In this document: positions 13,618-51,557 of the stretch, in pieces
How positions within the stretch are numbered: the first letter of the stretch is position 1
How the letters are laid out: each line of letters opens with the position of its first letter
The notes under the pieces: model-generated
Database searches by the model: none
The model's input: the letters and a program-made list of their open reading frames with translations, nothing else
What the model was told of the DNA's origin: nothing
Program-made: the position numbers and the translations under genes
Source: Caldicellulosiruptor obsidiansis OB47
GTDB taxonomy: Bacteria > Bacillota > Thermoanaerobacteria > Caldicellulosiruptorales > Caldicellulosiruptoraceae
Assembly: GCF_000145215.1 (NCBI RefSeq)
Contig: NC_014392.1
Span: forward strand, 124,001-188,000
Direction of reading: 5' to 3'
DNA: 64,000 bases

Positions 13618-13648
13618 GCAATATAGTAAAAAAGGGGAATATTCAGAG

Positions 13649-16226: not shown

Positions 16227-16228
16227 AG

Positions 16229-19298: not shown

Positions 19299-19319
19299 AA
19301 ACCAATTGGAGTGGTGAAA

Positions 19320-19832: not shown

Positions 19833-19836
19833 AATC

Positions 19837-24300: not shown

Positions 24301-27300
24301 CTTTCGTTTTATCTGAACTATGAGGGATGTAAACGTTCTAAGTCATCAATTAACTCATCAATTATTTGTACGTTTTATCTGAACTATGAGGGATGTAAAC
24401 TCGCTATCTCAGCATCAGTTCGGGCACGGTTGGAGATGTTTTATCTGAACTATGAGGGATGTAAACTTTTTCTATCTTTTCAGCTTTAACAATTTCACAA
24501 TGTTTTATCTGAACTATGAGGGATGTAAACCACTTACTTTTTGTTTTACAACCTCGTTTATTTGCTCGTTTTATCTGAACTATGAGGGATGTAAACGTCG
24601 TTTTGCAGCCTGTAAAAAAGTTAGCTGATATGGTTTTATCTGAACTATGAGGGATGTAAACGTCTTTATAGCTGGATGAACAACGTCAAAAGCAATTGGT
24701 TTTATCTGAACTATGAGGGATGTAAACCACAGTAAGAGAAAAGCTAAAAGCTCTAAAAATCAATTGTTTTATCTGAACTATGAGGGATGTAAACTCCTAT
24801 AGGGAGTACAGAACTATAAGAATAAGAACCGCGTTTTATCTGAACTATGAGGGATGTAAACTTGTACGTGCGGCTTCCACCGCCTCTGTTTCCATGTCAG
24901 TTTTATCTGAACTATGAGGGATGTAAACATTATTATCCTTAAAAATTCTTTGCCAGCCCGCGTTTGTTTTATCTGAACTATGAGGGATGTAAACATTCAG
25001 TAACGGTTTGTTCAGGTACTTTAGGTGAAACGGTTTTATCTGAACTATGAGGGATGTAAACTATTTACTTGTATTCCTGCTCACATTAGCCAAAACGGGT
25101 TTTATCTGAACTATGAGGGATGTAAACACCGCTGCGACCTGCAGCGTAAATTGTGTTTTGAGGCGTTTTATCTGAACTATGAGGGATGTAAACAGTGTGG
25201 TGCTTTGAAAAAAAGGCAAAAACAAAACTGAGTTTTATCTGAACTATGAGGGATGTAAACCTTTCTTTTTTAAAAAATCAATTATTTGAGACAATCCGTT
25301 TTATCTGAACTATGAGGGATGTAAACTTGATGGTTTTAAAGAACCACCGGGATGGTTATGCGGTTTTATCTGAACTATGAGGGATGTAAACAAATTGTGG
25401 CGGAAAAAATTTTGAGTTATACTTTCGGTTTTATCTGAACTATGAGGGATGTAAACTTCTTCTTTGCTTTTTTTGTCTTTCATTATGAAGCTGGTTTTAT
25501 CTGAACTATGAGGGATGTAAACTTGAAACTATATCGGGTTGTGGGTCTACAGAAAAATGTTTTATCTGAACTATGAGGGATGTAAACACAGCTCTGGACA
25601 ACACGGATATGTCGGACGTACCGGTTTTATCTGAACTATGAGGGATGTAAACCGTAACGAAAGAGAAGGGGAATATCTTACTAATACAGTTTTATCTGAA
25701 CTATGAGGGATGTAAACATAGAGCTTTAGAGATAGTTAAAAAGGCTATGGAGAGTTTTATCTGAACTATGAGGGATGTAAACTTTGAATATATTTCAAGA
25801 AAAGGAATTGTTTGTTGTGGTTTTATCTGAACTATGAGGGATGTAAACAATTAGAAGAAATTAATAGAGAATTATCAAATTTAGGTTTTATCTGAACTAT
25901 GAGGGATGTAAACGAACAAAGAAAACTTTATAATGCTATTAGAAAAGAAGGTTTTATCTGAACTATGAGGGATGTAAACAATTGTGGAGAGGTTATAGTG
26001 TTAGAGGGGGATAGTGCGTTTTATCTGAACTATGAGGGATGTAAACATGTCGAGACTTTTAGACATTGCTATAAATGAATTGTGTTTTATCTGAACTATG
26101 AGGGATGTAAACAGAATGACTATTTTAGGGTTTGATACGGGTGTTTTATGTTTTATCTGAACTATGAGGGATGTAAACAGTCCTAAAATTTGGAAATGAT
26201 GGCAGGGGGTTCAGAGTTTTATCTGAACTATGAGGGATGTAAACCACAATAGGTTCTCTTTTTATTCCCACAGGTATGTTTTATCTGAACTATGAGGGAT
26301 GTAAACTTGTAATTTTTTGCTTCATCTTCTTTACCTATTAATCTGTTTTATCTGAACTATGAGGGATGTAAACATTGATGAAAGACGTAAGCGAGAGTGA
26401 GGAAGGTTTTGTTTTATCTGAACTATGAGGGATGTAAACCTATAATAGGGTTCATCCTGATAGAAACTGGACATAAGTTTTATCTGAACTATGAGGGATG
26501 TAAACTTATCAAGCATAACGAAAGCATTATCGTCGAGTAAAGGTTTTATCTGAACTATGAGGGATGTAAACTCTATTGAATTATTATCATAATTTACTTT
26601 AAAAATTTTGTTTTATCTGAACTATGAGGGATGTAAACTACTCTTAAATTTAGAAAACACAATACATTTTTCTTCAGTTTTATCTGAACTATGAGGGATG
26701 TAAACAAAACTTTCTCATATTCAGGCTTAACAACCCATGTATGTTTTATCTGAACTATGAGGGATGTAAACTTGCATGGGAACAAGTACGTAATAATTAA
26801 AAGTGGTAGTTTTATCTGAACTATGAGGGATGTAAACACAGCAGAATCATTAGAAGAGTTAGAAAAGCTAATTAAGTTTTATCTGAACTATGAGGGATGT
26901 AAACTAATTATTTTACTTGGTTATTAGTTTAATCATTAGTTTTATCTGAACTATGAGGGATGTAAACTATACACAACCTCCTTTTTGTGTTCAAAAGTAT
27001 TTACAGTTTTATCTGAACTATGAGGGATGTAAACGATTTGAACAAGTTAAAATCTTCGAGGTATGGATATGTTTTATCTGAACTATGAGGGATGTAAACA
27101 AAGCATAGTTGTTAAGAACAAAATTTATCAACTCTTGTTTTATCTGAACTATGAGGGATGTAAACGTAAGATTCAACTATATTGTTAAAATAATTAGTCT
27201 GCGTTTTATCTGAACTATGAGGGATGTAAACCTTTATTACTCAAAAAATATTCATAAGCCCTGTTTAAGTTTTATCTGAACTATGAGGGATGTAAACCTA

Positions 27301-30300
27301 ATTCCCAATTCCTTTTAAATATATACGAATCTTTGTTTTATCTGAACTATGAGGGATGTAAACATACTTATCTCTTCTAAATGGTATCCGTCATAAATTT
27401 GTTTTATCTGAACTATGAGGGATGTAAACTAGTAATGCACTGTAACTTTTACCAGAACCTGGTGTAGTTTTATCTGAACTATGAGGGATGTAAACATAAT
27501 CAAACGGCAAACTAAAAGGAAACTTTCTCGATATGTTTTATCTGAACTATGAGGGATGTAAACATGAATGAGATAGCTAATTTACTTAATTCTGAAGATG
27601 GTTTTATCTGAACTATGAGGGATGTAAACTTCGGCAAGTACCCATGAATGGTGAACAGTCCGTTATGGTTTTATCTGAACTATGAGGGATGTAAACCATA
27701 CTAACGTATGCGTTAACACTGATTGCGGCTAAGTTTTATCTGAACTATGAGGGATGTAAACAATTTTTTTGCGACGTTAGTAAAGCTTAGTCGTTAGGGT
27801 TTTATCTGAACTATGAGGGATGTAAACGTTAATAGTGAGTACAGTTGCAGTGCGTTTCCCTGTCTGGTTTTATCTGAACTATGAGGGATGTAAACAAGCT
27901 TTCTTTTTTTTTTTCTTTTAAGCTCTCTTCCTGTTTTATCTGAACTATGAGGGATGTAAACTATCTAAAAACTGAATAAATCTCTCCTCAGATACATTTG
28001 GTTTTATCTGAACTATGAGGGATGTAAACTTCTCAATCTATCAATTTTATAGTCTATGAAAAATATGTTTTATCTGAACTATGAGGGATGTAAACACTTT
28101 CTTTTGTCTTATCCATAATAAATGAGTTTTTAGTTTTATCTGAACTATGAGGGATGTAAACGATAATTTTATAGATTGTTCGTCGAAGAATGTTAAGGAG
28201 TTTTATCTGAACTATGAGGGATGTAAACGATATTCTCTTCTTTTCGAACTCTGCACATTTGGCTCGTTTTATCTGAACTATGAGGGATGTAAACACATTT
28301 AACTTGAGAGATGTTTGTGATGCAGTTATAGGTTTTATCTGAACTATGAGGGATGTAAACCGTATTACTTGTAAATATTTTACGCTTGTCATTTTTTCGT
28401 TTTATCTGAACTATGAGGGATGTAAACGTAGTAAAGGTGAGTATTTTAGGTGATGATGTGAGGGGTTTTATCTGAACTATGAGGGATGTAAACATAGCAT
28501 AACTAAAAACTTTTCTATCAAAATCTTCACGTTTTATCTGAACTATGAGGGATGTAAACGATAGAGGGTTATTTGAAAGAGACAGCTAAGCATTTTGTTT
28601 TATCTGAACTATGAGGGATGTAAACATGGATTGGAACGAGCAGGAGCAGAAATATAACTGGGGTTTTATCTGAACTATGAGGGATGTAAACTTTATATCC
28701 TATGTAAGTTCGACAGAAGCACTATAGTGGTTTTATCTGAACTATGAGGGATGTAAACAGGAACTTTTTCTAAAATAATTACCTTCTGTCCTTTGTTTTA
28801 TCTGAACTATGAGGGATGTAAACAGAAATTATTCTAATGCTGAAGGTAAAATTACAAAAAGGTTTTATCTGAACTATGAGGGATGTAAACATAATTTTAA
28901 TGATTTTTATGCGAGGGCTGATTTAAGTTTTATCTGAACTATGAGGGATGTAAACATGGATTGGAACGAGCAGGAGCAGAAATATAACTGGTTTTATCTG
29001 AACTATGAGGGATGTAAACGTGAGGATAAAGGGAGATATGAGCTCAGGTCTAAAAAGGTTTTATCTGAACTATGAGGGATGTAAACATAATTTTAATGAT
29101 TTTTATGCGAGGGCTGATTTAGTTTTATCTGAACTATGAGGGATGTAAACTAACAACAGCTGCCTCTGTATTAGCTACCTCACCAATAGTTTTATCTGAA
29201 CTATGAGGGATGTAAACTCAGCAAGATACCAGATAAGAATTCGATCATTTTCTGTTTTATCTGAACTATGAGGGATGTAAACAAGCAGGAAGTTGGGTTA
29301 TGATGTAGTGCTGATTACGTTTTATCTGAACTATGAGGGATGTAAACAATGTTAGGGGGTTAGTTTTTTATTTTGTAGTAACAGGTTTTATCTGAACTAT
29401 GAGGGATGTAAACATAGGCTGTATGCATTAGGGTTAATAGATCGGATAAGTTTTATCTGAACTATGAGGGATGTAAACATATACCTGACATTATTAAATT
29501 TAACAGTGCTATTAAGTTTTATCTGAACTATGAGGGATGTAAACACGTATAATTTAACTGCTACGAGCGGTAGGGATTATGTTTTATCTGAACTATGAGG
29601 GATGTAAACAATTTTATAAGTGGTTTGAGTGATTATGATATAGTAGTTTTATCTGAACTATGAGGGATGTAAACGACGGAAGCTATAAATTGTCGATAAC
29701 AGCTTTAGTAGTTTTATCTGAACTATGAGGGATGTAAACTATTATCAGATAAAGTTCCTTTCAGGACCAAATCTTGGTTTTATCTGAACTATGAGGGATG
29801 TAAACTCAGAATCTCTAAAAATATTCTTTCTAATTATACTGGTTTTATCTGAACTATGAGGGATGTAAACCATTATAAACATTATGTTTGCGTAAAGTGT
29901 TTTTAAGTTTTATCTGAACTATGAGGGATGTAAACATGATATGTCTGAAATACTTAGTGATAACACTGTGAGTTTTATCTGAACTATGAGGGATGTAAAC
30001 TAGGTTCCGCTTCAAGCATACTCACTAAATGCACTAAGTTTTATCTGAACTATGAGGGATGTAAACTTACTTAAAACCTTACCCTCTAATCCTTTAATAT
30101 ACGTTTTATCTGAACTATGAGGGATGTAAACTTCTCTTCACGTATAATGTCTTTTAAGCACAGGTAAGTTTTATCTGAACTATGAGGGATGTAAACTCAG
30201 AACTATATGCATTAAGCCAGCGTTGCATAGTAGGTTTTATCTGAACTATGAGGGATGTAAACAAAGCCGTTTCTGTTGGATAATACGCTGAGTAATAAGT

Positions 30301-33300
30301 TTTATCTGAACTATGAGGGATGTAAACCAAATTTCTCTACATGTAACCTTCACTGTCTACCACCGTTTTATCTGAACTATGAGGGATGTAAACGTCAATG
30401 GGTTTACTAACCTTAACCAGTTTGAACCTTGTTTTATCTGAACTATGAGGGATGTAAACGGTTAACTGTTATGTATAATGGTCCTTTAGGATATTTGTTT
30501 TATCTGAACTATGAGGGATGTAAACCCTTATAACCATTCTTCTCACGCGGAACAAACACATCGTTTTATCTGAACTATGAGGGATGTAAACACTCTTTAA
30601 ACAGTGCTTTCATAAGATTTTCGGCATCGTTTTATCTGAACTATGAGGGATGTAAACTTGCACAACCTTCAGCCCATCCCATCCTTAAGCTTTGTTTTAT
30701 CTGAACTATGAGGGATGTAAACGCACTTAAGGTTATAGGTATGTTTACTACTGGAATAGGTTTTATCTGAACTATGAGGGATGTAAACTTCTCTTCACGT
30801 ATAATGTCTTTTAAGCACAGGTAAGTTTTATCTGAACTATGAGGGATGTAAACTCAGAACTATATGCATTAAGCCAGCGTTGCATAGTAGGTTTTATCTG
30901 AACTATGAGGGATGTAAACGGATATATTTTAATAAGGGTGATGGATTTAAAGAGAGTTTTATCTGAACTATGAGGGATGTAAACATTCTCCATGCAACCC
31001 GCCATTAATTTAATAAATTAAGTTTTATCTGAACTATGAGGGATGTAAACAGTTATGTACCGTTGTTCATAGACCAGCCCGAATAGGTTTTATCTGAACT
31101 ATGAGGGATGTAAACATAAGGGGTAAGAGATATAGATTCGGGAAGTTTAAAAGTTTTATCTGAACTATGAGGGATGTAAACAAACGACAACGTATGTGGA
31201 GTATACAGGAAATGGTAGTTTTATCTGAACTATGAGGGATGTAAACGCGACGCTAAAAGGTTGACAAGGGAATCCTGCACAAGTTTTATCTGAACTATGA
31301 GGGATGTAAACGAGGCTAAAATCTTTATCTCCATCAGAAATCTGGCCCGTTTTATCTGAACTATGAGGGATGTAAACACATGGCGATAGGTAAGTTCGTG
31401 GCTGGTGAGGCTGGGTTTTATCTGAACTATGAGGGATGTAAACGCTCTGGAACGGAGCTGGCACTGTGAAGGTGGTTATTGTTTTATCTGAACTATGAGG
31501 GATGTAAACTTCACCGCCGTAATGGTCACGGTGCCAGCAGCGCCAGGTTTTATCTGAACTATGAGGGATGTAAACTTCCAGTTATGCAATCTATATTGCC
31601 TAAAGCTCTGATAGTTTTATCTGAACTATGAGGGATGTAAACTCTACTATCATCTCTTCTGTTCCTTCAACCACATCAGGTTTTATCTGAACTATGAGGG
31701 ATGTAAACGATTACAGACTTTTGGCACAGATAGAATGGTACGATGGTTTTATCTGAACTATGAGGGATGTAAACTGTGGGGATTGGGAAGGTGTTTGTCA
31801 AATTGGTTATAGTTTTATCTGAACTATGAGGGATGTAAACAAGGGAGAGCTGTTCAGAGACACAGCAAAATTTCTCGGTTTTATCTGAACTATGAGGGAT
31901 GTAAACATCTCAAGACGCTTTTATAGTCTGTTGCTGTATCTGGGTTTTATCTGAACTATGAGGGATGTAAACAATTAGAAGAAATTAATAGAGAATTATC
32001 AAATTTAGGTTTTATCTGAACTATGAGGGATGTAAACGTTAGAAGACGCAGAAGAATATTAGAACTGTTACAGGGTTTTATCTGAACTATGAGGGATGTA
32101 AACAGAATAAAGAAAAACAGGGAGAGCTCAGGAGTCTGTGTTTTATCTGAACTATGAGGGATGTAAACGAGACAGTTGCAGGAATACTTGTAGGATTGGG
32201 TGTTAGTTTTATCTGAACTATGAGGGATGTAAACTAGACATAGTGTAAAAGAATTATATCATTCTTTAGAGTTTTATCTGAACTATGAGGGATGTAAACC
32301 AAGTGTTACTATCATTTTCATTAGCCCCCAATTTAGTTTTATCTGAACTATGAGGGATGTAAACTCTATCAATTGTTGGTCTGCTTTTGGAATATTTTTG
32401 AGTTTTATCTGAACTATGAGGGATGTAAACAGGTTTGCGATAGCAAGAACTTTTGTAACAGAACAAAGTTTTATCTGAACTATGAGGGATGTAAACTTAA
32501 TTCTTGATTTAATTGAGTATAAAAGACGATAACAGTTTTATCTGAACTATGAGGGATGTAAACATGATAAAAGTTTTGGGAATAGATGCTTCATTAACCA
32601 AGTTTTATCTGAACTATGAGGGATGTAAACAAAAAATAGTCTTTGTAATAAAACTTTCTTAAGTGAAGTTTTATCTGAACTATGAGGGATGTAAACTAAG
32701 CTTTTAGTTTCTGAAGAGGTGGAATTTTCGTTGGTTTTATCTGAACTATGAGGGATGTAAACGCGTGTTCGTGTATAATGTCTCAAAACCTCGTCAATTG
32801 GTTTTATCTGAACTATGAGGGATGTAAACGAAAAGGACAAAGAAGCTATCAAACGTAAAATAGCAGTTTTATCTGAACTATGAGGGATGTAAACACAAGC
32901 GAAAAAAGCACATTCGAGTGTTATGGACTAAGTTTTATCTGAACTATGAGGGATGTAAACTTGCTCGCACTGACGATGAGATAGCGGCGGCATATGCAGT
33001 TTTATCTGAACTATGAGGGATGTAAACTCAATGGCTAAAGGTTTTATCTGAACTATGAGGGATGTAAACTCAAAATTTACAACAGACATTTTCTCTTCTT
33101 TCTTCTCGTTTTATCTGAACTATGAGGGATGTAAACGCACAAAAACTGTGGACTACACTTTTTAAATCATTAAAGGTTTTATCTGAACTATAAGGGATGT
33201 AAACGATACTATTCGAATGCACAATAAAAAACTTATTTTAGTTTTATCTGAACTATGAGGGATGTAAACTTGAGAATAAGGATAATCTAACGAAGGGGTA

Positions 33301-34051
33301 ACACCAGTTTTATCTGAACTATGAGGGATGTAAACTCTCTACAGGAAATAATTTCATTAAATTATTCATAAAGTTTTATCTGAACTATGAGGGATGTAAA
33401 CGCGTCTGTTATGGTTTATGCAAGGAAGCTTCTTTGTGTTTTATCTGAACTATGAGGGATGTAAGCCAGGGTTTTGCATTTGGAACGACTTGCTCGAAAT
33501 AGGTTTTATCTGAACTATGAGGGATGTAAACTTTTCTTTTCATTTGTGGATTATACTTAATTACAAACGTTTTATCTGAACTATGAGGGATGTAAACATG
33601 ACACAAATTCAAATTTTGCAACAAGCAATAAACAGTTTTATCTGAACTATGAGGGATGTAAACTCAAGCACATCGTTGTTTGCTTCTCTGACACTATAAA
33701 GTTTTATCTGAACTATGAGGGATGTAAACGAATTCCAATTATCTGGGTTAAATATATTGTTTTTAAAGTTTTATCTGAACTATGAGGGATGTAAACAAGA
33801 ACGTATCTGTCTGTCAATCATTCTGTCAAACTGGTTTTATCTGAACTATGAGGGATGTAAACGATTCACCTTTTCAGGGTATAGACGCTGGAGTAATAAA
33901 GTTTTATCTGAACTATGAGGGATGTAAACAAATATGCCCGTCTTGGAGAAAAGTCTTTCATTTTTAGTTTTATCTGAACTATGAGGGATGTAAACTTTAT
34001 AGATGTATTTTTCATAGTACAGATATGCAACAGTTTTATCTGAACTATGAG
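21343..34051 (+). CRISPR. Giant type I-B CRISPR array, about 190 repeats of 29 bp
   Basis: The repeat is 29 bases, starting GTTTTATCTG and ending GGATGTAAAC, with spacers mostly 35-38 bases. With a ~66-base period I estimate about 190 units; I did not count every one. The 3' ATGTAAAC is the expected 8-nt crRNA handle, so transcription is rightward. Only late repeats deviate: 33176-33204 (G to A at position 17) and 33438-33466 (AAAC to AAGC). One spacer (33028-33040) is just 13 bases. Several spacers are repeated exactly or nearly (see findings). The last unit here is cut after base 19 of the repeat, at 34051, by an IS110-family element. Apparent open frames inside repeat FYLNYEGCK or YIPHSSDKT and are artefacts of the repeat. 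Confidence 0.98.
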
Positions 34052-34110
34052 CATTCCTGTAATGAACGAAAATGAGTGAAAATGACGAAAAATGAGATTT
34101 GAAAAGATAA

Positions 34111-34178
34111 GGTACCTCCTGGTAAAATACAGAATGTAAGTTGTACAACTTACGACAAAACACAACAAAGGAGGTACC
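34111..34178 (+). promoter_or_regulatory. Hairpin that would hide the transposase ribosome site
   Basis: GGTACCTCCT (34111-34120) is the exact complement of AGGAGGTACC (34169-34178), which contains the Shine-Dalgarno GGAGG for the TTG start at 34183. Within the loop lies an 18-base perfect palindrome (34136-34153, GTAAGTTGT/ACAACTTAC). RNA that enters from outside the element would fold and shut off translation, whereas RNA started inside the loop would not. This resembles the read-through protection known in other insertion sequences. Confidence 0.7.
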
Positions 34179-34182
34179 CTCT

Positions 34183-35468
34183 TTGAAGTATACACAAAAT
34201 GAAAAGATATTACAAGTAACAGAAAAAACTTTAGTTGTAGGAGTAGACATAGCGAAGGAAAGGCATGTTGGAAGAGCATTTGATTTTAGAGGAGTGGAGC
34301 TTGGCAAGAGAATAGAGTTTGAGAATAGAAAAGAAGGTATGGAAAAATTTTTGGATTGGGCAAATAAGATAATGAAAGCCAATGGCAAAGACAACATGAT
34401 AGTTGGGATAGAACCTACAGGGCATTACTGGCTGTGCTTTGAGCAGTACTTAAGAGAGAATGGCATAAAAGTGGTTTTAGTGAATCCTTTTCACGTAAAA
34501 AGGAGCAAAGAACTCGATGATAATACACCAACAAAGAGCGATATAAAGGATCCGAAGACGATAGCGATGCTTGTGAAGGATGGAAGATACACAGAACCAA
34601 ATATACCCGAGGGTATATATGCTGAGATGAGAGTAGCGATGAACATATATGAAAGGCTACAAAAACAGCTGAACGTTTTAAAAAATCAAATAATCAACTG
34701 GCTGGATATCTATTTTCCAGAGTTTTTAGAGGTATTTTCTGATTGGGAAGGCAAGGTAGCGCTATTGACCCTAAAAGAGATGCCATTGCCAAGTGATGTA
34801 ATAGAAAAGGAAGTAGAAGGGATTATAGAGTACTGGCGTGACAAAGTAGATAAACGTGCGATTAGTCGCAGGAGGGCGATGGATTTAGTAGAGACTGCTA
34901 AAAGGAGTATAGGTAAAAAGAAGGTAGAAAGCTGGCAAGACAAGAGATAAAATATTTGCTTGAAGAATATGAGCTTTTAAAGAAGCAGGTAGAAGAGATA
35001 GAAGGTGAGATGGCAGAGCTTTTGAAAGATGTGCCGAATGGTGATAGGCTGCTTGAAATAAAAGGTGTTGGTGTAAAAACAGCAGTTGGGTTTATTTCTG
35101 AGGTTGGAGATATAAGGAGGTATGAGGATGCGAGACAGATCCAGAAATTAGCTGGTCTTAATATAATTGAGAATAGTTCTGGCAAGTACAAGGGGCAGAC
35201 ATGTATAAGCAAAAGAGGGCGAGGGCGGCTTCGAAGTAGTTTGTTCAGGGCCATGATTACAATAGTAGCAAAGAATGAAGAATTTAAACAGCTGCACATG
35301 TATTACACAACGCGGCAGAACAATCCATTGAAGAAGAAGCAATCACTGATAGCGCTTTGCTGTAAGTTGATAAGGATATTTTATGCGATTTTGAAAAAAG
35401 GGATAAGGTATGATGGTAATAAGATGTTGAGCGATATAAAGAGAGAGACATTAGCAAGAACAGCGTAA
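34183..35468 (+). pseudogene. IS110-family DEDD transposase, frameshifted
   Basis: The first part (TTG 34183 to ~34950) begins KYTQNEKILQVTEKTLVVGVDIAKERHVGRAF; the D of GVDIAK, the E of GIEPTGHYW and the later DIKDPKTIA belong to the RuvC-like DEDD domain. The second part (to 35468) contains the Transposase_20 helix-hairpin-helix (LLEIKGVGVKTAVGFISEVGDI..A.QIQKLAGLN) and the serine-bearing NSSGKYKGQTCISKRGRGRLRS. The frames differ by one at a run of five A's near 34914. One more A would restore SIGKKEGRKLARQEIKYLLEEYELL. So it is a one-base disruption, a sequencing error, or low-level slippage. Length if joined is ~428 residues, normal for the family. Confidence 0.85.
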
Positions 35469-35698
35469 AAGAATAAAAAGATAACTTGAGAAATCTTAGT
35501 TTAAAGTAGGAGCAATAGTTTGAGTGATTCACATCTGAAGGGGTAAAAGTTTCTTAGCTTTGCGAATGGAATAAAGTCATGTCAAGAAGCAAAGCGCCCC
35601 TTTTGGTAGGAGTTCAAATCATAGAGAATGTGTTGAGGGTAAGAAGTGAAGGAAAAAGGAATTAAATGATTTTTTATAGGTAGATTGAAAAATGAGAG

Positions 35699-35860
35699 CG
35701 GGTGGTCGGAGTACATCCCCCATAAGGGCGAAGACCCTGCATACGAGCATAACCGACTTCCACGCCATGGTAGATGGGACGAAGGAATTGAGGGCAAATA
35801 AGCAAAGACCCTGAGAGACATGAGAGGGTAAACGCCATGGTTATTGTGGGTAAAAACCCG
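35699..35860 (+). ncRNA. Candidate bridge RNA (seekRNA) of the IS110/IS1111 element
   Basis: Downstream of the transposase, a GC-richer block holds two consecutive stem-loops, each with an internal bulge and an AGGG/CCCT apical hairpin. Loop 1: stem GTGGTCGG (35702-35709) with CCGA (35753-35756) and CCAC (35760-35763); apical hairpin 35725-35738; its 5' side has TACATCCCCCATA (35712-35724) and its 3' side TACGAG (35742-35747). Loop 2: CCATGG copies at 35765-35770 and 35835-35840; apical hairpin 35791-35812; its 5' side has AGGAAT (35783-35788) and its 3' side ACATGAGAG (35818-35826). Loop 1 resembles the CRISPR repeat and loop 2 the element ends, the arrangement of target- and donor-binding loops. 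A further hairpin GGGTAAAAACCC follows near 35849. The RNA boundaries are not determined. Confidence 0.65.
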
Positions 35861-36030
35861 CCGTAATATGGTAAAATATCTAAATTAATACAAAAAGTAG
35901 GTTGAGTTTAATCTTCGCATGGTAGAATAAAGCAATAATAGCAATATCAAGAATGATATTATTTGTTTCGATAGCGAAATTTAAAGAAATCGAGAGATAT
36001 TTTGAGAAAATCAAAGATACATTGAGAGAG

Positions 36031-36295
36031 GGATGTAAACTGAAAACAAGAAAGATTTTAATATCAAGCCTTTGAACAGTTTTATCTGAACTATGAGGGA
36101 TGTAAACTTCTTCAAAGCTTGCTGAAGTTCTTGAACTCTCTTATGTTTTATCTGAACTATGAGGGATGTAAACTCAACTTTAAGTTGCTGTAACAACGCC
36201 TGTGCTGACGGTTTTATCTGAACTATGAGGGATGTAAACACAAGATTTTAATGATTGATGCTGTTATTCCGGATGAGTTTTATCTGAACTATGAG
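36031..36295 (+). CRISPR. Array remnant beyond the insertion: rest of split repeat, three full repeats, one truncated
   Basis: After GGATGTAAAC (36031-36040) come full repeats at 36079-36107, 36145-36173 and 36211-36239, with 36-38-base spacers. The last repeat (36277-36295) stops after base 19, CTATGAG, and then AGACTTGTC begins. This is the leader-distal end of the same array. Confidence 0.93.
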
Positions 36296-42014: not shown

Positions 42015-43085
42015 TTAGTTATCTCTACGAACTTCTTCAAATAAACCATAACCTAATCGTGTTTTTGCACCTATGCCATAAAAGTTTAAAGCGGTTTTTA
42101 TTATGTTTTTAAAGATTTTAAAATTATCTTTTTCTAGTAATTGGATTAGCTCAAAACATATGCTTTTTGTTTCACATGTGCTTTTTGTTTCAAAAAATTC
42201 TACTAACTTCTCGGCCCGGTGTTTGTCATAAAACACAATGAATTTAAATTCAATTCCTGGTTTGACTGCTAAGAAGTTAACAGGTTGTGGGTTGTACCAG
42301 TCCCCAGCTGGATTGTTTATAGGATTGCTGTAATAATCAGGGTAATGGGAATTTATTATATCTAATTCAAATATAGAGGTTAATTCCGATAGATTTTGAG
42401 GATATGCATCTAAAAATGTAAATAACCCTTCAAAATTCTTTGTCCCAAATATAAGTTTATATAGTAAAATTCTTTTATTAATATCGCTAAGATCTAATAG
42501 TTTATAGTTTTCAAAATAAATGTCTTCATTATATAAGTTTTGGAAAACATATTTTGCTACTTCATTAATTTCGTCTTGAGAAATTTCTTTTTGAGATTCT
42601 TTTTTATCATAGTTATTTAATATTAACGAAACTATTTCCCAGAATGCAGCAGCCTTACATCCACCTTTAACAGCAGAAGATGGTATATAAGGAATTCCCC
42701 AAATATAATCAAGAGTTAAGGATGTTTCGAATACATGTTCAGAACCTAAACCAACAACGAGTCTTGATATATTTTTCATATTAATATCAATAACCTTTAA
42801 AAAGTGATTAGCAAGCAAGTATTCTTCAATACTTTTCAATTTGTAATTTATTTGATTTTGAATAAGAGGTAATTTTTCTTTTGCTTTGCTAATAGAAATT
42901 GATTGTAAGTATACTTTTTTGCTTTTTTGATTTATAAGATCAAAATTTTTATTTTTGCGTATTTCAAAAGAAACACCTTTTAAAAAAGCAAGTGAAAAGT
43001 TATCCCACTCTGCTATAGCTGAATTTAACTGCCGATTTGCTTGTTGATCACTTTTCAAATTTTTACTCTTCTGTTGTTTTGACAT
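42015..43085 (-). CDS. cmr6: Type III-B Cmr complex subunit Cmr6
   Basis: A 356-residue RAMP protein. The Cmr6 hallmarks are LVVGLGSEHVFETSLTLDYIWGIPYIPSSAVKGGCKAAAF (about 110-150) and the C-terminal glycine-rich GIGAKTRLGYGLFEEV. The N-terminal ~90 residues are charged and helical. It overlaps cmr5 by 23 bases and is the last gene of the operon. In the complex it caps the 3' end of the crRNA-bound backbone. Confidence 0.92.
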   Translation of the reverse strand: MSKQQKSKNLKSDQQANRQLNSAIAEWDNFSLAFLKGVSFEIRKNKNFDLINQKSKKVYLQSISISKAKEKLPLIQNQINYKLKSIEEYLLANHFLKVIDINMKNISRLVVGLGSEHVFETSLTLDYIWGIPYIPSSAVKGGCKAAAFWEIVSLILNNYDKKESQKEISQDEINEVAKYVFQNLYNEDIYFENYKLLDLSDINKRILLYKLIFGTKNFEGLFTFLDAYPQNLSELTSIFELDIINSHYPDYYSNPINNPAGDWYNPQPVNFLAVKPGIEFKFIVFYDKHRAEKLVEFFETKSTCETKSICFELIQLLEKDNFKIFKNIIKTALNFYGIGAKTRLGYGLFEEVRRDN

Positions 43086-43434
43086 CTTTTATTTCCACCT
43101 CAACAATTCTTTTTAACCAATTAGCAAGTTTAAGAACTTCGGAGGTTTTAAAAAGAAGATCTTCATAATTTTCTTTAGTTAAATATTCAATTAAATCAAT
43201 ATTTTGTAGCTTGTTTGAAAACCAGCCATTTATGATATTATAAACATTTTCATTAGATTTTTTAAAAAATACTAAGGTTGCCAGAAGACCATTATTGGTT
43301 ATCATAGCAGGAAGTCTTCTTATATCAGATTTAAACTTTAAAAGTTCATCACTTTTATCTAATTTGATTTTATAGCTTGAAATTTCATTGAAACAAAACT
43401 GAGCCATTTCTTGTTCTATGCTTTTTATATTCAT
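43063..43434 (-). CDS. cmr5: Type III-B Cmr complex small subunit Cmr5
   Basis: A 123-residue, all-helical protein. MNIKSIEQEMAQFCFNEISSY and KFKSDIRRLPAMITNNGLLATLVFFKKS match Cmr5 (the conserved PxMIxxNGLxxTLxF run). It lies between cmr4 and cmr6. Cmr5 units line the target-RNA groove opposite Cmr4. Confidence 0.92.
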   Translation of the reverse strand: MNIKSIEQEMAQFCFNEISSYKIKLDKSDELLKFKSDIRRLPAMITNNGLLATLVFFKKSNENVYNIINGWFSNKLQNIDLIEYLTKENYEDLLFKTSEVLKLANWLKRIVEVEIKDVKTTEE

Positions 43435-43453
43435 TTAGCTATCTACCTCCTGA

Positions 43454-44509
43454 TTATCCTTGGAGTTTTGAAGTAGCTTTTACCTTTACAAAACCTCTTC
43501 CAAGAGTTGAATCTGCACCAAGTTGAAGAAGTCCATTGTCAAGTAGTTTTTTAAGTTGATTTATAACATCTTGAGAAGACAAATACCTGTCTTCACATTT
43601 TTCTCCAGCTGCTTCTTTTAATATGTTTAACTTTTCGGTGGAAACAGAACTACCCAATTCTTCCCAATCGACAGATGATAATTTCAATTTGTTGTATAAA
43701 TCATTACCAATACCAAAAAACGGGTCGGTTGAAAAAATAAAACCGTAAAAAATACTCTCTGAAGGCAAAAGTTCTTCAGTAAATAGTGCTTTATCGTCAA
43801 CAACACCTGTTATTTGGTCTATTCTTATTCGAGTTCTAATTTCAACAGCATATTTAACAAAAGCTGAAAAAATATTGTCTGAAACTATTGCTAATCTCTT
43901 TTCAAGTTCTTCTGTGAGTGTATTTGTTGGGAGAATTTCTTTAAAAAAGCCAATAATTTTATCATTGCTTACAACTTCTGATGAGAATTCAAATTCTTCC
44001 AGCATTACTTTTTCTGAAGAATTTTTTATACAGCTATTTTCATCAATCAACACTACTTTGTTTTGAGATATAGGAGTTTCTATAGAAGTAATCCACTCAT
44101 TTATTGCTTTTAATATATCAGGATTATCGCATAAAATACCAGTATATTCCATTTCTTGGATAAATCTTTTTATAACAAATGGACAGGTTAACCAAGCAAA
44201 GATGCCGTTTGCTGAACGCACAGGGTAAAAAAGTATTTTTGCATCAGTAAAGCTTATACATGATGCAACTAAATTATCAGAAGATTCTTCTGCCTCAGAA
44301 CCAAAGATATATAAAAGTTTTGTTTTACTCCATCCGCTTCTCAAAGCTTTATCTCGGGCAACACCTTTGATACTGCTTGACCAGATAACAGGGAAGTCTG
44401 TGTGTTTTTCTCTTTGAATTGGCAGGTCTACGTATGATATACTTTGTCCAGAACCCATATGTAGAGGAGTTTCACAATAATATGTTGCCAAGATTACATC
44501 TTTGAACAT
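43454..44509 (-). CDS. cmr4: Type III-B Cmr backbone and RNA-cleaving subunit Cmr4
   Basis: A 351-residue RAMP beginning MFKDVILATYYCETPLHMGSGQSISYVDLPIQREKHTDFPVIWSSSIKGVARDKA, a textbook Cmr4 N-terminus. D28 in the VDLPIQRE motif corresponds to the Asp that cuts target RNA at 6-nt steps in studied Cmr complexes. The glycine-rich C-terminus LQLGADSTLGRGFVKVKA is present. Target-RNA cleavage is therefore probably intact. It follows cmr1 after 28 bases. Confidence 0.94.
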   Translation of the reverse strand: MFKDVILATYYCETPLHMGSGQSISYVDLPIQREKHTDFPVIWSSSIKGVARDKALRSGWSKTKLLYIFGSEAEESSDNLVASCISFTDAKILFYPVRSANGIFAWLTCPFVIKRFIQEMEYTGILCDNPDILKAINEWITSIETPISQNKVVLIDENSCIKNSSEKVMLEEFEFSSEVVSNDKIIGFFKEILPTNTLTEELEKRLAIVSDNIFSAFVKYAVEIRTRIRIDQITGVVDDKALFTEELLPSESIFYGFIFSTDPFFGIGNDLYNKLKLSSVDWEELGSSVSTEKLNILKEAAGEKCEDRYLSSQDVINQLKKLLDNGLLQLGADSTLGRGFVKVKATSKLQG

Positions 44510-44537
44510 TTTACCACTCCTTTAATTTTATTCTCTA

Positions 44538-45773
44538 TTAAAAGTCTAATTTATCAATTAGATCACAATATTTTAAGGTATTAATAAAACTATCTATAGC
44601 ATTCCAATTATTTGTTGAACATTTTATTTCATTATTTTCATTATTTTTATTATTTTGAATATTTAAAAGTATTTCCATGTTGTTTGGTAAAAAATCAGAC
44701 TTCATTACTATAAACAAACATTCAACACTGTTTGAAGAATTTGAGGGAGAATTTAATAATAATATTTTGAACCACAAAGGTGATGCCCGTCTACTTTTAG
44801 AGTTTTGTGATTGTTTGTAACAGGCATCTACAGAATAATTATAATTCCCAATTCTAAAAGGCAAAGGCAAACCAAACACAGATCTTTCAATTGTTATTCC
44901 ATTATTTTTTGCCGACAAAGGATTTTTAATTGCAGAAATTAAATTTTTATAATCAGGCATATAATAATTTCTAAATTCCATGAGTAAACAACCCATAAAT
45001 GACAATGCTTTTAAAGGGTTACCCAGCTCAAAATCTAATGCTTTTAAATGAGGCATATATTTATTTTTTTTCTTGTTTTTGTATATTTCACTGACCCATT
45101 TTTTATATGAATCTTCCAAATTGCCTTTTTTGAGATAATATATTTCTACACTATTGTTAAACAAACAAGGAATAGACTCTCTTTCTTTTGAAAACAAAAT
45201 ACTTTTTATCGAATTAAGATTTTTATTAAACCAATCTTTTAAAGGTGCTGTAGGAATAAATTCAAGGAATTTAAATATTTCATCACTACCATCTATTTTA
45301 TTAACTTTTACAGACCCAAAACCTCTTCTTGCTCTTGCACCAAAGTTACCAAGATTCATAGCAAGCCATACACTGCAAAAAAACTTCTTTATATCATCTT
45401 CTGTTGCTAAAGGTGAAAAACGGAAGGTTAGCTTAAACTGTTGTCCACATTGAAAACAAAAATTTTCTCGTTTTCTTAAAAAATAATTCAGATAATCAAA
45501 GCCTTTTTTTAACTCAAAGTTGAGTTTCTCGCTCCTTTGATAAGAATCTTTATTAGAAGTTTGTTCTACTATTATCTGCACAAGTCCTTTTCTGCCATTG
45601 TTTCCTCCAAAACCAAATATTCTTTTTTCATCTTCTAAATCTCCTCCTCCAATTCGAAACCAATACCTAAAAAGCCCATTAAAAGACTGACTTCTTAACT
45701 CTAATTTTTCTTTTTCACTCCCACACATATAAAGAGGAGTAACAATTTCACAGTGAAAGTTGTATTCCCTCAT
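44538..45773 (-). CDS. cmr1: Type III-B Cmr complex subunit Cmr1
   Basis: A 411-residue protein with the Cmr1 N-terminal RAMP FHCEIVTPLYMCGSEKEKLELRSQSFNGLFRYWFRI and the GARARRGFGSVKV glycine-rich loop. A run of Asn/Glu near residue 375 (NIQNNKNNENNEIK) is low-complexity and probably a surface loop. It starts two bases after cmr3 ends. Cmr1 sits at the crRNA 3' end with Cmr6. Confidence 0.92.
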   Translation of the reverse strand: MREYNFHCEIVTPLYMCGSEKEKLELRSQSFNGLFRYWFRIGGGDLEDEKRIFGFGGNNGRKGLVQIIVEQTSNKDSYQRSEKLNFELKKGFDYLNYFLRKRENFCFQCGQQFKLTFRFSPLATEDDIKKFFCSVWLAMNLGNFGARARRGFGSVKVNKIDGSDEIFKFLEFIPTAPLKDWFNKNLNSIKSILFSKERESIPCLFNNSVEIYYLKKGNLEDSYKKWVSEIYKNKKKNKYMPHLKALDFELGNPLKALSFMGCLLMEFRNYYMPDYKNLISAIKNPLSAKNNGITIERSVFGLPLPFRIGNYNYSVDACYKQSQNSKSRRASPLWFKILLLNSPSNSSNSVECLFIVMKSDFLPNNMEILLNIQNNKNNENNEIKCSTNNWNAIDSFINTLKYCDLIDKLDF

Positions 45774-45775
45774 TT

Positions 45776-47032
45776 TTAGGTTTTCTCCTTTCTAATAAGA
45801 ACAAGATTTGAACCAATAAAACTATTTATTGGCAAAGATGAAATATTTCCTGATGAAATTTCAATATCTTTTTCAGCAATAGCCCAAATTACTGTACCAG
45901 CCGGAATTGCTTTTGAGAAAAATCTTGTATTTTTTGATGAATATAGTGTTATATTAAGACAACTGTTCATTGTCATGGTGATAGTTCTAAAACCGCATTT
46001 GTCGAGCAAATCTGGCAAAAAGTTATCAAATACCCCATGGGTAAGAAATAAAATTTGAATTTGTTCATCTTTTTGTATCTCTATAATTTTTCCTGGGAAT
46101 TCTGGGAATATTAATAAATTATTATTCTCAAACTTTAAAAATCCAACAAAAGTATTTTCAACTTTAAGAAGATCTTTTATTTCATCAAAAAAAGACACTT
46201 CTTCAATCTTGTAAGATACTATTCTTGACTCACCACCAACTTTCAGTACACGTGGTGATTTTTCAAAAATTGCTTTTATTTGCTCATATCCTAAATTAGT
46301 TTTTTTGAGATTTTCATCTTCAAGATTAAATTCTACCCATACAACAAATGAGAACTTTTCTGCAGGCTCAATTTTGAGCTTTTTAAAAGATACTCTGTAA
46401 ACACCACTTTTTTTTTCAACAGTTCCATCTCTATGATTTATTTTTATACCAATTCTGTTATCGTTTTGGCATATCTCATCAAGCTTAATAATATTTTTTT
46501 TGTTTTCAATATCAATATTTGTATTTGAAAGTTTATTTTCTAACGAACCTTCTAACCAATGTTTTAAATATTCTATTGAAATAAACCCAGTAAAAGGTTC
46601 AATTTCAGTTTCATCTTTAGTGTAAACACAAAATGTAGAGATTTTATCTGGCTTGTTAGTATTTTTAGAAAAAAATAACTTCAATGCTCGATTTTCTAAC
46701 GGCTTTAATATACAGAAAAAATTAGGATTATCTTCTTTTCTGGCAGTGTATATATTTGAAGGTATAGAAAAAAATATAGTTTCCTTTTTCTGACATGAGT
46801 TTGTTTCTTCATTGTATGTTTCTGTAAGTCTTTTCACAAAAGGACCATATATATATTTTATTACTTTTGAAGATTCTATATTGAGAAAAGTTGCAAGTTT
46901 TTTTGATATTGCTCCGGCAAAGGTATGCGAAAACGGGGGAAAGATGGAACTTGCATCATCTCCCCTGTTAAAAGCTTTTCCACTTCCAAAAAACAAAACA
47001 TCAAAAGGTTCAAATTCAAATTTTAGCATCAT
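45776..47032 (-). CDS. cmr3: Type III-B Cmr complex subunit Cmr3
   Basis: A 418-residue protein opening MLKFEFEPFDVLFFGSGKAFNRGDDASSIFPPFSHTFAGAISKKLA, typical of Cmr3 (the FR..S.FPP..T..GA signature). GAGGTGG lies eight bases before the first ATG. Cmr3 holds the 5' handle of the crRNA and binds Cmr2. The C-terminal SKAIPAGTVIWAIAEKDIEI is also family-like. Confidence 0.92.
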   Translation of the reverse strand: MMLKFEFEPFDVLFFGSGKAFNRGDDASSIFPPFSHTFAGAISKKLATFLNIESSKVIKYIYGPFVKRLTETYNEETNSCQKKETIFFSIPSNIYTARKEDNPNFFCILKPLENRALKLFFSKNTNKPDKISTFCVYTKDETEIEPFTGFISIEYLKHWLEGSLENKLSNTNIDIENKKNIIKLDEICQNDNRIGIKINHRDGTVEKKSGVYRVSFKKLKIEPAEKFSFVVWVEFNLEDENLKKTNLGYEQIKAIFEKSPRVLKVGGESRIVSYKIEEVSFFDEIKDLLKVENTFVGFLKFENNNLLIFPEFPGKIIEIQKDEQIQILFLTHGVFDNFLPDLLDKCGFRTITMTMNSCLNITLYSSKNTRFFSKAIPAGTVIWAIAEKDIEISSGNISSLPINSFIGSNLVLIRKEKT

Positions 47033-47057: not shown

Positions 47058-50015
47058 TTATAAATCAAGATCATTCTTACCTGTCAAAAATTTTGCTAAA
47101 GCAAAAAGATAACCAAACATTAAGATATTTTGTGTTTTGAATTTATTGCAATTCTCCTCTTTTTCAGTTATACATTTTCTAAAACAATAAATTATATCTT
47201 CTATCTTTAAGACAGATTTTTTATCTTCATTTTTCTTCTTTCTTTTCCACAACCTTTTTATTTCCAGTTCTAAAATATCTACTATTTCCTCTGAAACATA
47301 TTCCTTTTCAGTATCTAATAAACGATTTATAACCTCAATAATTTGATTGCAAATAACTTTAGGGACTGAACCATTTTGAAATTCATTTTTTACCTTATTT
47401 ATAAATTCCACTAATTCCCATTTGCCACCACATTCTTTAATTTCGCCAGAGTGGGTTATAAGCTGAACACAAAAAGCATTTCTGCCAAGCTTATTTTTTG
47501 CTTTTTTTTCTGCACTTCTTACTGCTTTTAAAGCAAGTGATAAAGGATATTTATGATAAGCTATAACAATTCCTGCACTCATTGTAGCCCGGGAGATTAC
47601 TGTTTTTTTGTATCGCTCTTGAAGTTCATACGCACAATTTAAAACAGTATTTACAGGAAGCAATGCTAAAACATCATCGCCACCCGCATATATCAATTTT
47701 CCGAAATATTTTTCTTCAACAATTTTTCTTACGTCATATAGGGCAAAAGAACATAATCTACTGCTTAATATTTGATGGTATGTAGGGGTAGCAGGATGTA
47801 TTTTATTAAAAAGTTCCTCAATACCATTAGAATTTTTTAACAACTCATTATATACATCAGGATGAATAGTTTCGCCAATTGTAGGAAATTCAATGTTGTC
47901 ACCCTCACTTTTCCCAAATCCTCTAATCCATTTGCCCATATGGTCGCCATCCATTTGCAAAATTGCAAAGTATCTTGAAAAATTTAAGTTTGCGCTTTTC
48001 AAAAAATTTCTCATATTTTCAAGAATGCTTTCATCAATATTTTCGATACCTAACTCATTTTTAAGATAATCTTTTGTGTAACTTTCTTCCATAAGCCACT
48101 GACCATCAATAAAAGCGAAATCTTGGTATTTAGTACCAAAAAATTTTTTCAAAGCAGGTACTGTTTCAGATGAAGGAAATTTTTTGCCACTTGATTCTAT
48201 CTGCGTTTTAAATTGGTTATATTTCTCTATAAATTCTTCAATAAATTTTGGATTAGTTTTTAACAGTTTTTCTTTGACTGGTATACAAGCAATTTCTGAA
48301 GTAGATGGGAATGATGAAATTTCAAAACCAAATTCTTCCTCAAGCAGTTTTGGAAAAAGTCTTTTAAATAAACATACCCCACAAAGCCTTTCATTTTGTT
48401 TCAAAAGACCAGGGTTTTTTTCTCTTAGTTTGTGCCAATATAGTTTATTTTTCTCTTCATCCTTAGCTAAAAAAACTATTTCATTTTCGCCACACAAATG
48501 GCATTTTTCTCTATTATAATAGGGGATAAATTTAATTTCTCGAACACTTTTTCGTGCACCTAAAAGTTTTTCTAAAAGATCGATCAACAAAGGATATGCC
48601 CTGCCTATGCCAACCTTAGAAAAATCAATATCTTCTTTATTTTCAAGCCCTTGCTCAATTCTAATTATTTCTTCTATTAAATTTCGAATTTCGCTTTCTT
48701 CAAATAAAATTTTATGGTCATGAAATACATTTTCGCTTGTTAGTCCACCAGGAATTTTGCCAGAATTTTGCAGGTTGCATTTATTAGTAGTCCAAGGTAA
48801 TATTGCATAATAAACTTGAAAATATGACAAAAGTTGAGTTTCAATTTCATCACAAATAGAGGGATTGATTTCTAATTCATCTGAATGCTGATTTTTAACA
48901 AATTTTTTATTTTCCTCTTCTTCTGAAAGTTGTTTTTTGATAAAATTTACGATTTTCTTGGCAAAGTTTTTAAGTGCATTTTCTAGAGCTTTTTTGCATT
49001 CCTCAACAATTGTGTTTTTGCTATAAGGAATAATTGCCAAAAATCGATTGGGAATATTTGCAATTAACAATTTACTGTTATCTTCATTTTCCGCTTTACA
49101 GTATATTCCTTTCAGCAATTTGATAATCTTTTCAAGACAATCATTTTCGTCTTCAAAAGTTTTATAAAGCCATCTTTTTTCTATTAAAGGTTGCCCTCTC
49201 AAATTAGGATAAATTACAATATCAGGTCCAAGTTGGTCTATCAGAGGCTCTAAGCACTTATATGTAAGGTAAGAAAGAATGTAACTTCCTGCCCATAAAT
49301 CTTGAGTTTTACGTGCTGTTGCAATAAAGCTTTGAACAGGACCAATAGTAAAAATTAAAAATGTTGGGATACTACCTACTAAATCTCCCGAGGAAAGTTT
49401 ATCAACATCTACAATGGCTGTTGTGATAGCACTTGTCTGAACTAAATGGTTGTAAATTGAATGAGAAGGTATTCTACTATCTGCTGGGTGGATATTTACC
49501 CATTTGAATAAATCGGGAACATACAGCCAGAGAAGTAAAAAGGCTAATTTTGCTTTATCATCATTACAGGTTAGCACAGAACAAATATTTCCCAATAATT
49601 TGAAAAATTCTTCAAGTTCTTGATGCTTATTTTCAAAATCTTTACAAATCACATTTTCTTCAAGCTTTTCTATATAAATATTTCGAAAACAAATATCTTT
49701 ATGGTCTCTAATTTTTTCTGTTTTACTTTTAAGTTTTTCACTTAATACTTCATTCATCGGGTAAGAAATTCTATCTGCAATTTTAATGATTGGTAATAAT
49801 TCCTCTATACATTCTCCAGGAAGAATATAATTAAGAAATTTTTCTGCTACTATTTCGTGGATTGCTTCTTTGTGATTTTTGTTTTTTGGGCAAGTAAATT
49901 TATCTATATTGAGCTGAGCTTTAGTGTTGGGATCATCATTATCAAAGCTAAGTATCCATTGCTTATCGAGAGGGTCATGCAAGAAGGCTTTCAGTTTTAA
50001 TTTCCATATGCTCAT
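47058..50015 (-). CDS. cmr2: Cas10/Cmr2, cyclic-oligoadenylate synthase of the type III-B complex
   Basis: About 985 residues from ATG 50015 (AAAGGTGAT six bases upstream; a GTG three codons earlier overlaps that site). Order: an N-terminal HDPLDK motif near 13, a first cyclase-like domain with TIGPVQSFIATARKTQDLWAGSYIL (~225-250), a zinc finger with cysteine pairs near 505/508 and 545/548, MDGDHMGKW (~688) and then YAGGDDVLALLP with GGDD at about 778-781. An intact GGDD predicts that cyclic oligoadenylate is made upon target binding. The HD-like motif is at the extreme N-terminus as in Cmr2, so DNase activity is uncertain. The neighbouring Csx1 is the logical receiver. Confidence 0.95.
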   Translation of the reverse strand: MSIWKLKLKAFLHDPLDKQWILSFDNDDPNTKAQLNIDKFTCPKNKNHKEAIHEIVAEKFLNYILPGECIEELLPIIKIADRISYPMNEVLSEKLKSKTEKIRDHKDICFRNIYIEKLEENVICKDFENKHQELEEFFKLLGNICSVLTCNDDKAKLAFLLLWLYVPDLFKWVNIHPADSRIPSHSIYNHLVQTSAITTAIVDVDKLSSGDLVGSIPTFLIFTIGPVQSFIATARKTQDLWAGSYILSYLTYKCLEPLIDQLGPDIVIYPNLRGQPLIEKRWLYKTFEDENDCLEKIIKLLKGIYCKAENEDNSKLLIANIPNRFLAIIPYSKNTIVEECKKALENALKNFAKKIVNFIKKQLSEEEENKKFVKNQHSDELEINPSICDEIETQLLSYFQVYYAILPWTTNKCNLQNSGKIPGGLTSENVFHDHKILFEESEIRNLIEEIIRIEQGLENKEDIDFSKVGIGRAYPLLIDLLEKLLGARKSVREIKFIPYYNREKCHLCGENEIVFLAKDEEKNKLYWHKLREKNPGLLKQNERLCGVCLFKRLFPKLLEEEFGFEISSFPSTSEIACIPVKEKLLKTNPKFIEEFIEKYNQFKTQIESSGKKFPSSETVPALKKFFGTKYQDFAFIDGQWLMEESYTKDYLKNELGIENIDESILENMRNFLKSANLNFSRYFAILQMDGDHMGKWIRGFGKSEGDNIEFPTIGETIHPDVYNELLKNSNGIEELFNKIHPATPTYHQILSSRLCSFALYDVRKIVEEKYFGKLIYAGGDDVLALLPVNTVLNCAYELQERYKKTVISRATMSAGIVIAYHKYPLSLALKAVRSAEKKAKNKLGRNAFCVQLITHSGEIKECGGKWELVEFINKVKNEFQNGSVPKVICNQIIEVINRLLDTEKEYVSEEIVDILELEIKRLWKRKKKNEDKKSVLKIEDIIYCFRKCITEKEENCNKFKTQNILMFGYLFALAKFLTGKNDLDL

Positions 50016-50054
50016 TTTGATCACCTTTCAAGCTTTAGATAAATTTCAACATGT

Positions 50055-50110
50055 TTGGACAGACAAAGAAAGATTTTGTATAATTATATCATATATGTGA
50101 AATAAATCAA
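50055..50110. promoter_or_regulatory. Overlapping divergent promoters for csx1 (+) and cmr operon (-)
   Basis: Rightward: TTGGAC (50055-50060), 18 bases, TATAAT (50079-50084). Leftward: TTGATT (plus 50105-50110), 16 bases, TATAAT (plus 50083-50088). The two -10 boxes share two bases within TATAATTATA. Polymerase can hold only one side at a time, so the operons should compete. Confidence 0.65.
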
Positions 50111-50144
50111 CAGAAATTATTTTACATAAAAGGGAGGATTAAGA

Positions 50145-51557
50145 ATGAAGTTAATATATCAATTAGGTCGTTTGGATACTAATATGGAGCAACAAAAGTT
50201 TAAAATTGGTAAAGATAATGAAGATTATACTGAAAAAGCCGAGCTGAGCTCTCTTTTTTTAAAAAAGTATTTCAAAGAGAAGAACAATGATGAAGTAAAG
50301 GTAATACTTCTCTACCCAGTTAGTTTACCTTTTAATCCTAATTTGATTAGAGATAATTCTAAACTACATGAAATATCTAAAAAAAAGATTGAAGAGATTT
50401 GGGAAAGAGAGGATGAATACTTTAATAATCCATATAACTATTTTGAAAGTTATTTTCCTTATTGTAATGAGAAAGATGACTTTAGAATTATTCATTCGTT
50501 GGGTAGCTATTCATATGGTAAAAAAAGAGATGATGCTAAAAAAGTTCAATTTGATACCACTTATGGAGACATTGTGCTTGAGATTTTTCTTGACATGATA
50601 AAAAGATACCTCAAAATGAATAATTCGATTTCAGAAATTTACATTGATATTTCAAGTGGTCACAATATTTACATTTCCGCAATGCTTGAGGCGTTTAGGC
50701 ATTTTGCTACATTTACAAGTTTAAGACACTGGGTAGATAAAAGAAAAAGGCCAAAATTTTTCATCACAATCTGTGACCCTATTTTACCTGGAAGTGAAAA
50801 TATCTATCAGGTGTATATTGAAGAGCAGAGATTTAATGTTTTTTTGGAGTCTCCTATAAAAAGGTGGGAGTTTGAAGATATAAAAAGTGAGAATTTTGAA
50901 GACATGAAAAAGATGTTATTTGATAAGCAGACCTGTGAACTTCTGGTAGCTGTTTTAGAAAGATTTCTAATGACTTTTAGTGCTATAAAAAACAATATAC
51001 CTCTTTATCTATTTGATACTTATACTATTATTGATGAACCAGATGAAATTCAGAAGTTACTGGATGAAATAATTGAATACTTGCATGTTGAAATAGCAAA
51101 AAACTACAAAAATTCGCCGAAATTAGACAAAAATAAATGGATTAAAATAATAAATACTCTTGGATTTTATTTAGGGATAATTGATGTGATAAATCATGCA
51201 AACATTTTAAAATATAAAAAACAAAAAGGTGTTAAAAAAGATGATATAAAGAATATAATGAAGAATATATATAATAAATTTGGTCTTACTAATAACATTG
51301 ATATTCTATCTGTTGAACTAGATAAACTTAGTCCTCCAGACAGAAGAATAGCCGCAGATATCTTGAGGAGCAATTTTAGGAACCTTCTTAATAGAAAAAA
51401 TAGAGATAGAATACAACGTAATTTTTTTGCTCACTGTGGCCTCGAAGAAAATTTTGTTATTGTAAATGAAGAAAATGGAGATATTTATGTAGAATACATA
51501 GATGATTTGCCCGAATTAAGAGAAATGGTGGGAAAGATGCTTCTTGAACGAATATAA
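50145..51557 (+). CDS. csx1: Csx1-type CARF-HEPN ribonuclease
   Basis: A 470-residue protein. The N-terminal part is a Rossmann-like CARF domain; IYIDISSGHNIYISAMLEAFRHF (~165-190) is the ligand-loop region that binds cyclic oligoadenylate. The C-terminal HEPN domain ends with RNFFAHCG, the R-x4-H nuclease motif (R425, H430). GGGAGG lies upstream of the ATG. It is divergent from cmr2, which makes the second messenger. The role is general RNA degradation when the Cmr complex finds target RNA, causing dormancy or phage arrest. It resembles the MJ1666-type Csx1 group. Confidence 0.88.
   Translation: MKLIYQLGRLDTNMEQQKFKIGKDNEDYTEKAELSSLFLKKYFKEKNNDEVKVILLYPVSLPFNPNLIRDNSKLHEISKKKIEEIWEREDEYFNNPYNYFESYFPYCNEKDDFRIIHSLGSYSYGKKRDDAKKVQFDTTYGDIVLEIFLDMIKRYLKMNNSISEIYIDISSGHNIYISAMLEAFRHFATFTSLRHWVDKRKRPKFFITICDPILPGSENIYQVYIEEQRFNVFLESPIKRWEFEDIKSENFEDMKKMLFDKQTCELLVAVLERFLMTFSAIKNNIPLYLFDTYTIIDEPDEIQKLLDEIIEYLHVEIAKNYKNSPKLDKNKWIKIINTLGFYLGIIDVINHANILKYKKQKGVKKDDIKNIMKNIYNKFGLTNNIDILSVELDKLSPPDRRIAADILRSNFRNLLNRKNRDRIQRNFFAHCGLEENFVIVNEENGDIYVEYIDDLPELREMVGKMLLERI

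Follow-up and report, generated by a model that had tools for sequence, protein, structure and literature searches.

Bidirectional promoters have been described by Warman, Grainger, and colleagues, and in the excerpted text of one of their reports they are defined by divergent start sites 7 to 25 bp apart and overlapping −10 elements (PMC10268837). Excerpts of a second report state that such promoters sterically prevent the simultaneous binding of two polymerases (PMC12825309). The common spacings between the two starts are 10, 18, and 23 bp, with 18 bp as the optimum, but this is a preference rather than a requirement and small variations are allowed (PMC12825309, same excerpts). As reported there, all five of the bidirectional promoters tested in E. 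coli were too weak at their basal level for competition between the two directions, and strengthening one −35 element greatly cut transcription in the opposite direction, with one exception in which strengthening failed (PMC12825309). Start-site data exist for C. bescii, as far as excerpts of PMC8579813 indicate. The class of promoter is thus known. We found no earlier report of a promoter shared by csx1 and cmr2, or of this type III CRISPR pairing, in the open-access literature searched, at the level of listings and the openings of abstracts.

Here, we analyzed a divergent csx1-cmr2 pair in the window, the whole stretch of 64,000 nucleotides under study (G000:C1:124001-188000). The preliminary description of this DNA had named both genes, and family matches bore out both names. 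The csx1 gene (50145-51557, + strand) encodes a CARF-HEPN RNase of 470 amino acids that matched TIGR01897 in NCBIfam (151 bits against a cutoff of 110) and both PF22230 (CARF) and PF09455 (HEPN) in Pfam. Csx1 proteins are type III CARF-HEPN RNases in which R-X4-6-H is the HEPN motif. We found both domains and the motif in this protein, with the motif represented by R425 and H430, and its RNFFAH region was unchanged in five proteins except at one F/Y position. The cmr2 (cas10) gene occupies 47058-50015 on the − strand and matched TIGR02577 (315.7 bits). Its start is approximate; we favored the ATG at 50015 over the GTG at 50024 because the GTG lies inside a conserved Shine-Dalgarno-like stretch. 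The HD (H13 D14) and GGDD (positions 778 to 781) motifs of Cmr2 were invariant across six proteins, and the gene is followed by cmr3, cmr1, cmr4, cmr5, and cmr6 in that order (42015-47032, − strand; NCBIfam and Pfam). The Cmr2 domains, the two motifs, and the adjoining cmr1 and cmr3 to cmr6 are those of a type III-B Cmr2/Cas10. The divergent csx1 and cmr2 genes are separated by a gap of 120 to 130 bp.

The same window holds a very large CRISPR array (21343-36239) with 196 copies of a 29-nt repeat, each with at most 3 mismatches; the repeats all lie on the same strand at a spacing of ~66, and the array is interrupted for 2.1 kb after 33967. A type I-B set (cas6, cas8b1, cas7, cas5, cas3, cas4, and cas1; 12796-20817) adjoins the array and might supply the Cmr complex with crRNAs. 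A second csx1 is present in the same genome (L041:8175-9596), with TnpB nearby, and among the eight ORFs scanned at that locus no cas family other than csx1 itself scored above its cutoff. Homologues with ~38% identity to the Csx1 of the window occurred in all 12 genus genomes, and the copy in G011 contains a stop.

We scanned the csx1-cmr2 gap for promoter elements. Toward csx1, the + strand carries TGGACA-17-TATAAT, with the −35 element at 50056-50061, a 17-bp spacer, and the −10 element at 50079-50084. This site has 11 of 12 consensus matches, a score that ranks second within a 14-kb stretch. Toward cmr2, the − strand carries TTGATT-16-TGATATAAT, which has 10 of 12 matches; here the −35 element TTGATT lies at 50105-50110, the spacer is 16 bp, and the −10 element TATAAT lies at 50083-50088, with the TG of an extended −10 at 50091-50090 (within the preceding TGA). 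The two opposed −10 hexamers have 2 bp in common (50083-50084) and jointly form a perfect palindrome, TATAATTATA, at 50079-50088. This agrees with the overlap of the csx1 and cmr2 −10 boxes that had been noted earlier, and the same core was present in all five genus loci compared. The overlap had been called face-to-face, but the transcripts would diverge, and the term suits only the overlapping polymerase footprints.

We placed the start sites at the usual distance of 7 bp downstream of each −10. The predicted starts are at 50076 on the − strand and 50091 on the + strand, 15 bp apart, each at an A, with leaders of 61 nt for cmr2 and 54 nt for csx1. The remaining predicted cmr2 leader (50016-50075, − strand) contains a Shine-Dalgarno-like AGGTGA and TCACCTTTC, which was invariant in all five loci, and the remaining predicted csx1 leader (50092-50144, + strand) contains a Shine-Dalgarno-like GGGAGG. 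The full predicted csx1 leader (50091-50144) gave a hairpin z score of −4.0 in G000 and −3.6 in the near-identical G002; the hairpin was absent from G006 and G011. The predicted cmr2 leader had no significant fold.

As in the bidirectional promoters described by Warman, Grainger, and colleagues, the −10 elements here are opposed and overlap (50079-50084 and 50083-50088, in five of five species), the predicted start spacing of 15 bp falls within the 7- to 25-bp range, and the site lies between divergent, functionally linked genes (PMC12825309 and PMC10268837, as excerpted). Measured against the same excerpts, the site differs from the class: the predicted 15 bp is not the preferred 18 bp (nor 10 or 23 bp), there are two hexamers with a 2-bp overlap instead of one shared −10, and the genes belong to a type III CRISPR system.

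To what extent could such a site arise by chance? The palindrome TATAATTATA occurs once in the window and at least once in 39 of 100 shuffled windows; across the genome there are 21 sites in 2.53 Mb, compared with 12 for the reversed control. We therefore rejected the palindrome as standalone evidence, as it could be due to chance. Under a simple length criterion for ORFs, 5 of the 21 genomic palindromes lie between divergent ORFs, and among these five only the one between csx1 and cmr2 matches the −35 at 4/6 positions or more on both sides. A palindrome in a tandem context, at L045, likewise has −35 matches of 4 and 5. Overlapping opposed promoters in which each side scores at least 10/12 occurred twice in the window, whereas 30 shuffles averaged 0.43; pairs whose scores summed to 21 or more occurred once, against an average of 0.1 in the shuffles. 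A search for the full pattern found it in 0 of 100 shuffles; we gave this test no weight because the site itself had supplied the pattern, which makes the test circular. The palindrome alone is weak evidence, the whole site is beyond chance, and its conservation is strong evidence.

To follow the site within the genus, we searched 12 genomes and found a cmr2 match in 6, with no match in G007. The match in G001 was weak (E value, 8.8e-4) and was excluded, leaving five loci (G000, G002, G003, G006, and G011). In all five, the best site in each direction falls on the core. The cmr2-side site scores 10/12 with the extended TG in every locus, and the csx1-side site scores 11, 11, 10, 11, and 10 of 12. 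Alignment of the five gaps revealed a single 17-nt invariant run, TTTGTATAATTATATCA, at 50075-50091; this core contains both −10 elements and the extended TG and spans almost exactly the two predicted starts. The alignment was also invariant at the cmr2 −35 element (AAATCAA), at the Shine-Dalgarno-like stretch of cmr2, and in a few other short runs. Pairwise identity of the gaps was 65 to 77%, except for G000 and G002 (98%). With G002 left out, 67 of 129 columns were invariant and the 17-nt run remained at 50075-50091. Against a background of 45% invariant columns, a run at least this long arose 22 times in 100,000 permutations of the columns; this frequency is only a rough guide, because permutation treats the columns as independent.

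A perfect 10-bp dyad that is invariant in five species might instead serve as an operator through which a repressor or activator governs both genes. However, the symmetry ends at 10 bp, whereas the invariant block is 17 bp long and asymmetric, and the block stops at the predicted start sites. We searched the 12 genus genomes for the 17-mer, allowing up to 2 mismatches, and found exact copies only at the five csx1-cmr2 loci; the near-copies inspected, at five loci, were in or at the ORFs of other genes. On the copies inspected, we rejected the idea of a regulon sharing this sequence, and an operator function is very improbable.

Outside the core, the two sides are not conserved alike. The csx1 −35 element drifts: it is TGGACA-17 in two loci and TTGATA-18, TTGAGC-18, or TTGAAC-18 (or TGAACA-17) in the others, so that G003, G006, and G011 read TTGNNN with an 18-bp spacer in the alignment. 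In contrast, the −35, spacer, and extended −10 of cmr2 are invariant in all five loci. This would be expected if the site were mainly a cmr2 promoter, with selection holding the cmr2 elements and csx1 transcribed weakly from the core or from elsewhere. The csx1 −10 would then be conserved because it coincides with the discriminator and start region of cmr2, and the intact core of G003, which has no csx1, fits the same account. Nevertheless, on the csx1 side the TATAAT is complete and the TTG of the −35 is invariant in five of five loci, and we found no better promoter-like site for csx1 in the scanned region. We consider it unlikely, though worth keeping in mind, that the promoter serves mainly cmr2.

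The fate of csx1 itself varies among these loci. The gene is divergent from cmr2 in four of the five but intact in only two, G000 and G006. In G002 it is a shortened, broken copy; in G011 csx1 is interrupted and cmr2 is truncated; and in G003 csx1 is lost, and a frameshifted TnpB-like remnant, named from a reading of its translation and not from a family search, lies directly behind the core (L037:5769-6857). Despite these losses, all five loci carry the same 17-mer. Either the losses of csx1 would be recent or the cmr2 side alone would hold much of the core.

The preliminary description had proposed a seesaw, in which polymerase directed toward csx1 comes at the expense of cmr transcription, and vice versa, so that the level of a toxic RNase is tuned relative to that of the complex producing its activator. 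The overlap of the −10 boxes fits this proposal, as do steric exclusion and the competition seen once one side was strengthened in the excerpted E. coli work (PMC12825309), and the near-consensus boxes (11 and 10 of 12) could give higher occupancy than the E. coli examples. On the other hand, the same excerpts report no basal competition in five of five E. coli cases (PMC12825309). In addition, csx1 is broken or absent in three of the five loci (G002, G003, and G011) while the core is unchanged, cmr2 to cmr6 remain in two of these three (G002 and G003), and no regulator gene was found among the neighbors scanned. Because the core is unchanged in G003 and G002, balancing alone cannot account for its conservation, and its persistence without an intact csx1 appears to weaken the case for a dedicated ratio device. 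Cyclic oligoadenylate from Cas10 gates the activity of Csx1. This control is more direct than promoter choice, so a balance at the protein level would be further removed. We therefore regard the seesaw as improbable. One part of the proposal fared better: sequence and conservation suggest that one core probably starts both genes, whereas the claim that more of one normally lowers the other finds no support in the five E. coli cases as excerpted (PMC12825309).

To compare the arrangement outside the genus, we searched 37 genomes of the class for cmr2 and 398 genomes of the phylum for csx1. A contig scan gave 13 loci, of which 6 (L089 to L094) were examined together with L057 (in G030) and L058 (in G024); the more distant L095 to L101 were left out. 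All eight loci examined have cmr2 homologues, and L058 and L090, which score alike, may be from the same species. A csx1-like ORF adjoins cmr2 in three of the eight (G030, L091, and L092) and is always co-directional with it, downstream and split into two ORFs in G030 and upstream in L091 and L092. We did not find a csx1-like ORF in the other five, an absence that is weak since some loci were incomplete. The type III-B loci of G030, L091, and L092 thus resemble the one described here in that homologous csx1 and cmr2 genes adjoin, but there the genes are co-directional and nearly touch or overlap, whereas here they diverge from a common core. Among the loci examined, the divergent layout was seen in this genus only. 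The co-directional adjacency in the three relatives would fit a requirement for linked expression, and in this genus the shared core may take the place of operon coupling.

On the evidence of the gap and its conservation, we concluded that it probably contains a single bidirectional promoter of the housekeeping (sigma-A) type that gives coupled, modest output of both genes. In this model, each of the overlapping −10 elements would use its own −35, 16 to 18 bp away, and RNA polymerase would start csx1 rightward near 50091 or cmr2-3-1-4-5-6 leftward near 50076, with cmr2 to cmr6 presumably made as a single transcript. Two polymerases likely cannot occupy the core at once, and this exclusive occupancy would keep both directions from starting at the same instant. 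The most likely effect would be that the Csx1 effector and the signal-producing complex are expressed in a coupled manner and at modest levels, with the shared promoter standing in for the same-strand linkage of the relatives. By the E. coli precedent, as excerpted (PMC12825309), the default here would be linked modest output, and negative coupling would be expected only with one direction strongly activated. Against a shared promoter stand the drift of the csx1 −35 and spacer between species and the size of the comparison, which comprises five species only, with G002 nearly identical to G000 in this region (98%). Since the core is kept in G003 without csx1, much of the conservation may reflect selection on the cmr2 side or common ancestry.

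A bolder reading, which we judge quite improbable, is that this is an unusually strong conserved bidirectional promoter at which each initiation would choose between the effector and the sensor complex. A rise in cmr transcription would then cap csx1, and the reverse, with less cell-to-cell variation in a potentially self-harming immune pathway and without a regulator protein. More generally, a shared csx1-cmr2 promoter would add a defense-system example to the bidirectional promoters beyond the E. coli cases tested, and it would raise the question of whether the proportion between a cOA-activated RNase and the complex producing its activator is set at the DNA level. Our comparison suggests that in one lineage csx1 and cmr are coupled by a promoter that they share, while the examined relatives with both genes carry them on the same strand.
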